Part shown: piece by piece, positions 31,023-34,538 of the stretch
Layout: the number at the start of each line of letters is the position of its first letter
Numbering within the stretch: position 1 is the stretch's first letter
Assembly: GCA_019114745.1 (NCBI GenBank)
Contig: DXEY01000172.1
Location: forward strand, 1-34,743
Length of the DNA stretch: 34,743 nucleotides
Direction: 5' to 3'
From: Candidatus Mediterraneibacter colneyensis
GTDB taxonomy: Bacteria > Bacillota > Clostridia > Lachnospirales > Lachnospiraceae
Made by a program: the position numbers and the translations under genes
The notes under the pieces: generated by a model
Told to the model about the DNA's origin: nothing
Database searches by the model: none
Seen by the model: the letters and a program-made list of their open reading frames with translations, nothing else

Positions 31023-32120
31023 ATGAAATTAGGAATCGTAGGACTTCCGAATGTAGGAAAGAGTACCCTGTTTAATTCACTTACGAAAGCGGGGGCAGAA
31101 TCAGCGAATTACCCGTTCTGTACTATTGACCCGAATGTGGGAGTGGTGACAGTGCCGGACGAGAGGCTGAACGTGCTGGGAGAGATGTACCACACGAAAA
31201 AGATCATCCCTGCAGCGATCGAATTTGTGGACATCGCAGGGCTGGTAAAAGGAGCGTCAAAAGGAGAAGGACTGGGAAACCAGTTTCTCGCCAACATCCG
31301 TGAGGTGGACGCTATCGTCCATGTGGTGCGGTGCTTTGAAAATACGAATATCGTCCATGTAGACGGGAGCATCGATCCGCTCCGCGACATCGAGACGATC
31401 AATCTGGAGCTGATCTTTTCCGATCTGGAAATGCTGGAGCGGAGGATCGCCAGGACAGTGAAACTCTCGCGCAATGATAAGACGGCTGCAAAAGAGCTGG
31501 ATCTTCTGAACAGGATCAAAGCGCATCTGGAGGAGAATAAGCTGGCGAAAAGCTTTGTCACAGACGACGAGGACGAGCAGGCGTGGATGGCAGGATATAA
31601 CCTGCTGACAGCAAAGCCGGTGATCTTTGCGGCAAATGTCTCCGAGGACGACCTCGCAGACGACGGGGCGTCCAATGAAGGCGTGCAGGCAGTGCGCAGA
31701 TATGCCGGACAGGAAGAGTGCGAAGTGTTCGTTGTGTGTGCGGAGATCGAAGAAGAAATCTCCCAGCTTGACGATGATGAGAAGAAGATGTTCCTCGATG
31801 ACCTGGGATTAAAAGAATCCGGTCTGGAGAAACTGATCCGCGCAAGCTATCATCTTCTCGGACTGATCAGCTATCTGACTGCCGGTGAGCCGGAAGTGCG
31901 CGCGTGGACGATCACAAAAGGCACGAAAGCGCCCCAGGCAGCAGGTAAGATCCACTCGGATTTTGAGCGCGGTTTTATCCGCGCCGAGGTTGTCAGCTAT
32001 GACGACCTTATGGCGTGCGGCTCCCATACAGCAGCAAAAGAAAAAGGACTGATCCGTCTTGAGGGAAAAGACTATGTAGTACAGGACGGCGATATTATGC
32101 TGTTTAGATTTAACGTTTAA
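31023..32120 (+). CDS. ychF: Redox-regulated ATPase/GTPase YchF
   Basis: MKLGIVGLPNVGKSTLFNSLTKAGAESANYPFCTIDPNVGVV; C-terminal TGS-like domain. Confidence 0.96.
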   Translation: MKLGIVGLPNVGKSTLFNSLTKAGAESANYPFCTIDPNVGVVTVPDERLNVLGEMYHTKKIIPAAIEFVDIAGLVKGASKGEGLGNQFLANIREVDAIVHVVRCFENTNIVHVDGSIDPLRDIETINLELIFSDLEMLERRIARTVKLSRNDKTAAKELDLLNRIKAHLEENKLAKSFVTDDEDEQAWMAGYNLLTAKPVIFAANVSEDDLADDGASNEGVQAVRRYAGQEECEVFVVCAEIEEEISQLDDDEKKMFLDDLGLKESGLEKLIRASYHLLGLISYLTAGEPEVRAWTITKGTKAPQAAGKIHSDFERGFIRAEVVSYDDLMACGSHTAAKEKGLIRLEGKDYVVQDGDIMLFRFNV

Positions 32121-32131
32121 GGAGTATTGAC

Positions 32132-33085
32132 ATGCACTATGATATAGCGTTCCCCAACCTGGGCATATATCTTGACCACGTGGGGAAGAATATTGACATC
32201 TTTGGGTTTACAGTTGCATATTACGGCATTATCATCGGCTGTGCGATCCTGATCGGCTTTCTGATCGCCACTGCGGAGGCAAAGCGCACGAGACAGAATC
32301 CGGAGGACTATCTGGATATGGGGATCATCGGTGTGATCGCCGGGATCGCAGGAGCCAGGATTTATTATGTGGTATTCTCCTGGAATATGTACAAAGATAA
32401 TCTGCTGGATATTTTTAATCTCCGGAAGGGCGGCCTGGCGATCTACGGAGGCGTGATCGGAGCAGTGATCGCTGTGTTTATCCTTGCGCGTGTGAAAAAG
32501 TTGTCGCCGTTTCAGATATTAGATACCGTGGCGCTGGCTATCCTCAACGGGCAGATGCTCGGGCGCTGGGGAAATTTCTTCAACCGCGAGGCGTTCGGCG
32601 AATACACGGACGGCCTGTTCGCCATGAGGCTTCCGGTGGATGCGGTGCGTTCCGGCGATATTACCGAACGGATGCGGGAACATATGGAGACCATCGGCGG
32701 AGTGGACTATATACAGGTGACCCCTACATTTCTCTATGAGTCGGTGTGGTGCGCGGTTCTTCTGATCCTGCTTGTCCTGTACCGGAAACATAAAAAATAT
32801 GAGGGTGAAATGTTCCTGCTCTATATTTTCGGATATGCACTCGGCAGAGTCTGGATCGAGGGGCTGCGGACAGACCAGCTTCTGATCCCGGGAATCGGAT
32901 TCCCTGTCTCTCAGGCACTGGCAGGATGCGTTGTCATATTTGCCGGAGCGGCGCTTTTGTATTTCAGAAAGAATCACAGAAGGATGCCCCTGCTGAAGAG
33001 CGAGAAGGTGTATGAGCCAATGCCGGACAAGATCGAGGGAAAGAAACCGCCGAAGAAGAAAGACCGGATTTTTAAGTTTAAGTAA
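32132..33085 (+). CDS. lgt: Prolipoprotein diacylglyceryl transferase
   Basis: GGLAIYGGVIGAV; GQMLGRWGNFFNREAFG; PTFLYES; multi-TM. Confidence 0.95.
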   Translation: MHYDIAFPNLGIYLDHVGKNIDIFGFTVAYYGIIIGCAILIGFLIATAEAKRTRQNPEDYLDMGIIGVIAGIAGARIYYVVFSWNMYKDNLLDIFNLRKGGLAIYGGVIGAVIAVFILARVKKLSPFQILDTVALAILNGQMLGRWGNFFNREAFGEYTDGLFAMRLPVDAVRSGDITERMREHMETIGGVDYIQVTPTFLYESVWCAVLLILLVLYRKHKKYEGEMFLLYIFGYALGRVWIEGLRTDQLLIPGIGFPVSQALAGCVVIFAGAALLYFRKNHRRMPLLKSEKVYEPMPDKIEGKKPPKKKDRIFKFK

Positions 33086-33676: not shown

Positions 33677-34078
33677 ATGATGTTGGAACCATTTGAAGAA
33701 AAGGTGCAGATACAGTTGTTTTATCTGTCTCTGGTTCTTGCGGGAATACTGATTATACTGTATTTGAGCGGGATTGATTTCGGACAGTGGTTGCCGGGAT
33801 GCTACTTTTACAGGAAATATCATCTGTATTGCCCGGGGTGCGGCGGGACAAGGGCTGTGCGTTCCCTGCTGGCCGGGCATCCGGTAAAGAGTTTTCTGTA
33901 TCATCCGGTAGTGCCATATGCGGCAGGCGTATATGTGCTTTTCCTGTTTTCAAATATATTGTACAGATTGTCTCTTGTAAAAAAACCGTTTCGGCTGAGA
34001 CCTGTATATTTTTGTGCGGCAATTGCCATTATCATTGTTCAGTGGATTGTGAAAAATTTAATTTTGTTGTTACAATGA
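33677..34078 (+). CDS. DUF2752-family membrane protein
   Basis: YHLYCPGCGGTRAVRSLLAGHPVKSFLYHPVV signature of DUF2752. Confidence 0.88.
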   Translation: MMLEPFEEKVQIQLFYLSLVLAGILIILYLSGIDFGQWLPGCYFYRKYHLYCPGCGGTRAVRSLLAGHPVKSFLYHPVVPYAAGVYVLFLFSNILYRLSLVKKPFRLRPVYFCAAIAIIIVQWIVKNLILLLQ

Positions 34079-34082
34079 TATG

Positions 34083-34134
34083 ATCAGACAGCTGTCTTGA
34101 TGTTTAGCATCAATATGGCTGTCTGATATTTTTT
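34083..34134 (+). terminator. Intrinsic terminator after DUF2752 gene
   Basis: atcagacagc ... ttgatg-tttag-catcaa ... gctgtctgat followed by atttttt. Confidence 0.8.
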
Positions 34135-34155
34135 ATGATAGTATCGAGCCAGAAG

Positions 34156-34215
34156 TCGTCCCTGCGGGACTCCCCGCGGCTTTGCCGCTTCTTTGCTCAT
34201 GAATCGGCGCTTCCT
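34156..34215. repeat. 60-bp direct repeat, copy 1
   Basis: tcgtccctgcgggactccccgcggctttgccgcttctttgctcatgaatcggcgcttcct; 57/60 identical to 34344-34403. Confidence 0.95.
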
Positions 34216-34343
34216 GACTGCTTCCACATGCGGCAGCTCGACTTCGCTGCCCGAGGCAGCAAAATCGAGCTGTATGGCGTCCGCCTATGACTTCTCTCGC
34301 CGCATGTTCATTCTGCTTGCAGTTCCCCCGCGCCATTCGCAAA

Positions 34344-34403
34344 TCGTCCCTGCGGGACTCCCCGTGGCTTTGCCGCTTCTTTGCTCATGAACAGGCGCTT
34401 CCT
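34344..34403. repeat. 60-bp direct repeat, copy 2
   Basis: tcgtccctgcgggactccccgtggctttgccgcttctttgctcatgaacaggcgcttcct; 3 mismatches to copy 1. Confidence 0.95.
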
Positions 34404-34404
34404 T

Positions 34405-34464
34405 CGTCAGGAAAGTCAGTCGGAATTTTATGCAAGCATAATTCCGACTGACCATTTCCTGACG
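34405..34464. repeat. Long imperfect inverted repeat / hairpin
   Basis: cgtcaggaaa-gtcagtcggaatt...aattccgactgac-ca-tttcctgacg; arms match apart from a 2-nt bulge, and the centre (atgcaagcat) is also self-complementary. Confidence 0.9.
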
Positions 34465-34509
34465 GGGAAACTGCACCCCAAAATATACAAAAAAACGGAT
34501 CGCACTCTA

Positions 34510-34538
34510 TAGACTTTTGTCATTTTTGGCGATATAAT
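34510..34538 (+). promoter_or_regulatory. Sigma-A-type promoter upstream of pyruvate:ferredoxin oxidoreductase gene
   Basis: TAGACT-N17-TATAAT. Confidence 0.5.

Follow-up and report, generated by a model that had tools for sequence, protein, structure and literature searches.

A predicted IS66-mobilised MITE with an RNA-like fold, and the apparent local duplication of its core, upstream of a pyruvate:ferredoxin oxidoreductase gene in Candidatus Mediterraneibacter colneyensis

Introduction

Bacterial MITEs such as ERIC and the bcr1 element of Bacillus are non-coding, intergenic units of 100-200 bp that have inverted-repeat ends and a strong predicted RNA fold. In the REP/RAYT system, a palindrome of 20-40 bp with a GTAG/CGTC-type tag is associated with a RAYT transposase, and to our knowledge the hairpin-recognising Y1 transposases make no 8-bp target duplication. 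Target repeats of 8 bp are known from classical IS66 elements (PMC3281130) and from ISDge4, a member of the ISBst12 group that was caught transposing and has the terminal inverted repeat (TIR) GTAACTGCTCAGCA (PMC12898284). Among structured RNAs, Rfam family RF01699, the Clostridiales-1 RNA, goes back to Weinberg et al. 2010 (PMC2864571).

Here we consider a pair of direct repeats in Candidatus Mediterraneibacter colneyensis, near the right-hand end of a 34,743-nucleotide stretch of DNA (contig DXEY01000172.1) that we call the window. The repeats are very probably cores of a MITE, family A, for which we propose mobilisation in trans by an IS66-type transposase and selection for folding as RNA, the left-hand repeat being a later, partial and local duplication. 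In its size, non-coding nature, intergenic position, inverted-repeat ends and strong predicted RNA fold, family A resembles ERIC and bcr1, but it differs from them in having ends and a target-site duplication (TSD) of the IS66/ISBst12 type, and a covarying interior of several helices that it has in common with an Rfam family.

Results

The initial annotation had described two 60-bp blocks, offset by 188 bp and bearing small hairpins, in a GC-rich intergenic region. Most of this holds: the blocks (34156-34215 and 34344-34403) differ at exactly 3 positions with 128 bp in between, the DUF2752 gene lies on one side and the POR_N/pyruvate:ferredoxin oxidoreductase (PFOR) gene on the other, GC content falls from 0.58-0.62 within the repeat region to 0.28-0.39 directly outside it, and both hairpins are real, namely the family's helices P4 and P5. 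The direct repeats measure 63 nt each, with 94% identity and 188 bp from start to start; chance is excluded as the cause of their similarity, since they match at 59 of 63 positions and the maximum in 20 shuffles of the 1444-bp region was 34 of 63. What has to be revised is the unit: instead of the 60-bp block it is a 162-bp element, which has the right-hand repeat as its core and extends beyond the annotated interval, to position 34477 (Table 1).

Table 1. Features at the right-hand end of the window
Feature	Position	Strand	Remarks
DUF2752 gene	33677-34078
Inverted repeat	34083-34127		compatible with a terminator
Left-hand repeat	34153-34215	-	truncated core duplicate; 94% identical with the right copy, no more than 83% with others
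Element B	34227-34306	-	second, different hairpin element between both repeats; putative ends CATGCGGC/GCCGCATG
Complete family-A element (predicted MITE)	34316-34477 (162 bp)	-	covariance model R1
TAC-tip site	34316-34318	-	3' terminal inverted repeat; AAG in the window copy
Right-hand repeat	34341-34403	-	core of the complete element, helices P3-P5
Variable long hairpin P2	34408-34460 (approximate ends)	-	inverted repeat, CAGGAAA...TTTCCTG, apex ATGCTTGCAT; hairpin in folds
GTA-tip site	34475-34477	-	5' terminal inverted repeat; GGT in the window copy, family consensus GTA
Sigma-70-like promoter of the PFOR gene	34510-34538	+	TAGACT-17-TATAAT; -35 box 34510-34515, -10 box 34533-34538
POR_N/PFOR gene	start 34598

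Covariance model R1, which was trained on 44 rows with the window copy among them, finds that copy over its full length (1-162) with 127.2 bits and an E-value of 3.8e-29. The RNA-sense strand of the element, which is the minus strand of the window, comprises a terminal helix formed by the TIRs (GCAGTT.../...AACTGC in this copy), a variable, nearly perfect long hairpin with a CUUG tetraloop, and a core domain with a tandem G-A motif, which here reads GGAGCGCC...CATGAGCAAAG-(GCGGC..GCCGC)-(GTCCC..GGGAC)-...TTTGCGAATGGCGC. The element lies antisense to the PFOR gene in an A/T-rich tract, with about 32 bp between its end and the -35 box downstream of it. The PFOR promoter itself is also conserved where relatives have no such element. 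Upstream of this promoter, the sequence AACTGYACCCCAAAATATAC (window 34464-34480; loci L071-L099) is conserved in the genus even where the element is absent; it resembles the end of the MITE, and is possibly a fossil element end retained as promoter-upstream DNA. The flanking 8-mers of the window copy, TATTTTGG and CAGAATGA, do not match, so that no recognisable target duplication is left there; because the duplication is missing and the tips are degenerate, the copy is probably an old insertion that lost its duplication or never had one.

The hallmarks of transposition are clearer in relatives, from which the ends and target duplications, proposed for definition in the initial annotation, could be determined. 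Complete copies, 135 in all, are near-constant in length, mostly 157-160 bp and nearly all at 156-161 bp, with the terminal inverted repeats GTAACAGTTCAGCC; GTA and TAC stand directly outside the common ACAGTTC/GAACTGT ends, and an 8-bp direct duplication follows directly beyond. Of 133 copies, 22 have duplications matching at 7 or more of 8 positions, 14 of them perfectly, against a mean of 0.56 and a maximum of 4 in 1000 shuffled pairings, and no other offset or length of duplication does better than 8 bp. Examples are GTATTTCA at L204, ATCTGGCT at L154 and AAACTTTT at L216, and the 5' target side is T-rich. Among the loci compared between sister pairs, none was a clean empty site at which the 8-bp target stands only once; partial cases exist (L043 and L045 filled against L044; L086 against L092), their empty sites complicated by other insertions. 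Presence and absence of family A can be followed at two orthologous sites, upstream of PFOR and at the ychF-lgt junction; the latter, compared between L080, L083, L086 and L094 on the one hand and window positions 32118-32132 and L092 on the other, is occupied by family A in some of the congeners, retains a remnant in one of them and is free of the element in the window genome.

GTAA-type ends together with 8-bp duplications pointed to IS66, and in two relatives there is indeed an IS66 transposase of the ISBst12 type bounded by the same terminal repeat as family A. The intact IS, picked out among the IS66 loci of the genus (L234:149-1968), is 1820 bp long with a single ORF for a 485-aa transposase, has the ends GTAACAGTTCAGCCTTCCGG and GTAACAGTTCACCCTTCCGA with the TSD CGAAAAAA on both sides, and so displays both the GTAA-type TIR and the 8-bp duplication of the ISBst12 group. 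This IS, in genome G017, adjoins a copy of family A, of which that genome has many. Its transposase matches Pfam DDE_Tnp_IS66 (PF03050) above the cut-off (E 6e-21) and NCBIfam NF033517 with 145.6 bits, under that model's cut-off of 180. Independent transposase copies with 71% identity occur in another genus (L258 and L259) and end in GTAACAGTTCAGCCATGCG, which matches the MITE over at least 16 bases. Family A thus agrees with the IS66/ISBst12 group, as represented by L234, L258 and L259, in TIR type and 8-bp duplication; unlike these IS it has no transposase, and its interior is unrelated to theirs. Since the ends are shared and the duplications equal in length, family A is probably mobilised in trans by an ISBst12-type IS66 element.

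No IS66 transposase was found in the present genome, an 81%-complete MAG, the IS is intact in only 1 of the 58 genus genomes examined, and the plasmid and phage collections hold only distant IS66 transposases (28-30% identity). Genome G461 has copies of the IS, yet the MITE model matches it just once, and weakly. A second IS66-type IS of the genus (L251, L252 and L253) encodes a 567-aa transposase and has the ends GTTACTGTTCA, related to those of family A and distinct from them, with perfect 8-bp duplications at two copies.

The initial annotation had suggested an interspersed element, and the right-hand repeat does belong to one, as part of a full member of a large family; the pair itself is better explained as a local duplication. 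Counting copies, as had been proposed, gave three full-length copies and four fragments in this MAG (81% complete), and 0 to 55 matches among congeners, the highest number being that of G017. Within the genus, 50 of the 58 genomes searched carry family A, many of them with dozens of copies; because no more than 50 candidates were scored in each genome, these counts are lower bounds. A degenerate pattern scan returned at least 120 stretches; among the matches listed, most are from Lachnospiraceae, with the genera Mediterraneibacter, Acetatifactor, Roseburia, Dorea, Blautia, Claveliimonas, Catenibacillus, Lacrimispora and others, and Eubacterium ramulus is also among them. The viral contigs searched contained no family-A core, and a literature search found no paper on MITEs of this kind and a single relevant one that mentions Clostridiales-1; family A is apparently an abundant and so far undescribed repeat of Lachnospiraceae genomes. 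Many copies sit at the ends of draft contigs, in G017 at the extreme ends of contigs C15, C22, C32, C36, C39, C40 and C47, and for this reason the family probably breaks assemblies. The genes next to the copies are oriented in every way (opposite/same 38, opposite/opposite 36, same/same 27, same/opposite 13); this mixed context rules out a fixed link to one downstream gene and supports no single regulatory role.

The interior of family A is a covarying, conserved structure of one strand. Across 58 diverse copies and 40 predicted pairs, 96.1% of cells hold standard pairs, against 83.4% after shuffling and at most 42% when slid; in the same copies two-sided change is found at 25 of 40 pairs, compared with 15.8 after shuffling, and the score for covariation, 0.368 against 0.129, was reached by none of 500 shuffles (both uncorrected for shared ancestry). 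The fold consists of a terminal helix from the inverted repeats, a long hairpin of near-free sequence whose apex is C(UU/UC)G, and a tandem-GA helix (CAUGAGC/GCGAAUG) bearing two small hairpins. In the long hairpin pairing is kept while sequence varies: between copies the arms have a median ungapped identity of 33%, and each pairs with its own partner at a mean of -33.0 kcal/mol, compared with -14.6 kcal/mol when arms are swapped between copies. Uncorrected for relatedness, the sense strand folds more stably in 124 of 135 copies and has more G-U pairs in 103 copies against 8; in the conserved helix columns alone, G-T (21) is barely above A-C (14). The strand bias, the CUUG-type apices and an internal loop with a conserved tandem G-A make it most likely that the interior is constrained to fold as RNA.

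At the Rfam gathering threshold the window contains only two tRNAs. Below it, in E-value mode, the window copy matches RF01699 with 31.7 bits (the best copy in this genome with 39.6) against a gathering cut-off of 48 bits; positions 1-166 are aligned, the 34-nt 3' hairpin being absent, and R1 in return gives weak matches to RF01699-type elements. Both have a terminal helix, a hairpin with a GCUUGC apex and a CAUGAGC...GCGAAUG tandem-GA helix, and differ in that the window copy lacks the 3' GGAUUGYGGGAG...GCAAUCC hairpin. Copies of RF01699 are likewise dispersed and TIR-bounded: in the sister genome G027 (L380-L399) each of the 20 sampled copies is enclosed in a unit, about 194 bp long, whose TIRs measure 17 bp and read GATGCCAGGGTCAAAAG; 7-bp duplications matching at 6 or more of 7 positions flank 16 of these copies, 11 of them perfectly (shuffled mean 2.2, maximum 8). 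The ends and the duplication length of these units differ from those of family A, and no transposase with a 7-bp TSD was identified for Clostridiales-1. From these TIRs and duplications we infer that Clostridiales-1 is transposable in G027, with different ends, and, judging by sequence and structure, that family A is a sub-threshold relative of RF01699, making two MITE types with one RNA architecture.

The left-hand repeat holds only the middle of the core: neither the variable hairpin nor the 3' strand of P3 (TTTGCGAATGGCGC) is present, no ends are recognisable, and the repeat scores 37.2 bits on R1 with its pairs broken. Between the repeats, element B apparently lacks its CTTG hairpin; sister genome G009 (97% identity over the PFOR start) has B with a CTTGC hairpin at the same site and neither copy of A. 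Element B, which combines a CTTG/CTCG-apex hairpin with a GGCGGACGCC...CAGCGAG...CUCGAGCUG domain, occurs also at L005, L006, L043, L044, L045, L071 and L193, in many cases next to family A and at times in tandem. Because the two window cores are 94% alike, and the best other copy anywhere reaches 83% and other copies of this genome at most 70%, the best account of the pair is a partial duplication that took place locally, inside a family-A element. Of 135 family copies, 20 have another same-strand core no more than 300 bp away.

Discussion

The family combines a dispersed, multi-copy short unit with TIRs, TSDs and ends shared with an autonomous element. On the strength of its TIRs, its 8-bp duplications and the same termini on an IS66-type IS, we regard it as a MITE, that is, a non-autonomous DNA transposon. 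We propose that an IS66 transposase would bind the termini of family A and move it in trans, that insertion would prefer T-rich intergenic DNA, often an A-tract upstream of a promoter as in the window, and that the unit would be selected to fold as RNA when transcribed. In a later step the core would have been partly duplicated locally, giving rise to the left-hand repeat beside an element B that was already at the site.

It is conceivable that family A is primarily an RNA gene or a cis-regulatory RNA, as Rfam files Clostridiales-1, so that the repeats would be a duplicated gene and nothing mobile. The strong covariation, the bias towards the RNA-sense strand, the homology to RF01699 and the position of some copies between a promoter-like site and a gene's start codon all fit such an origin, which we nevertheless judge very improbable: RNA genes of this sort account neither for a TIR, an 8-bp TSD and ends in common with an IS, nor for a copy number that varies so widely among congeners in a gene context that is not conserved; the RF01699 copies of G027 also have TIRs and TSDs, and the target duplications are specific in sequence to each copy and so no part of the RNA unit. 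Intergenic palindromes of high GC content, one of them with a hairpin preceded by GGAG, might also recall REP/RAYT or IS200/IS605-type repeats moved by a Y1 transposase, but true TIRs with an 8-bp target duplication, the size of the unit and the existence of an IS66 element with matching ends make this scarcely credible. A more serious competitor, though in our view still unlikely, places the folding at the DNA level, as a cruciform or single-stranded hairpin used in transposition or as palindromes kept by template switching, with no selection on RNA. Pairing of the TIRs follows automatically from transposase binding, and template-switch correction of palindromes would give the same result as seen in the variable hairpin, which pairs despite near-free sequence; the internal helices P3-P5, however, also covary, stability and G-U pairs favour one strand, and the CUUG-type tetraloop apex and conserved tandem G-A internal loop are likewise at odds with it. 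Most likely, then, family A is a selfish MITE, and selection during transcriptional read-through maintains its RNA fold.

As to the pair itself, the same element might have inserted twice and independently, once on each side of element B. The family is probably mobile, B does sit between the copies, and sister G009 has B alone, but two insertions would hardly have produced cores so much closer to one another than to any other copy, both with the unusual GAGTCCC-GCA-GGGAC arm; the left copy is without recognisable ends, and a second same-strand core nearby is frequent in the family. We therefore think two insertions improbable and keep to a local partial duplication.

The architecture that family A and Clostridiales-1 have in common may reflect common descent with exchanged ends, or the capture of an RNA module. 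We speculate, tentatively and with rather more doubt than confidence, that one module, a CUUG-apex hairpin with a tandem-GA helix, has been packaged repeatedly between differing transposon ends, possibly those of element B included. If RNA cargo of this kind does travel between varied transposon ends, it would explain how a transposon came to be filed as an sRNA in Rfam.

Our reading would explain mechanistically how an abundant repeat of Lachnospiraceae spreads and would name the enzyme that likely mobilises it; the repeat would also account for assembly breaks in draft genomes, and the Rfam "sRNA" family Clostridiales-1 would be reclassified as transposable in at least one genome. A constraint on RNA structure inside mobile elements raises the question of what benefit the RNA may bring to the transposon or to its host.
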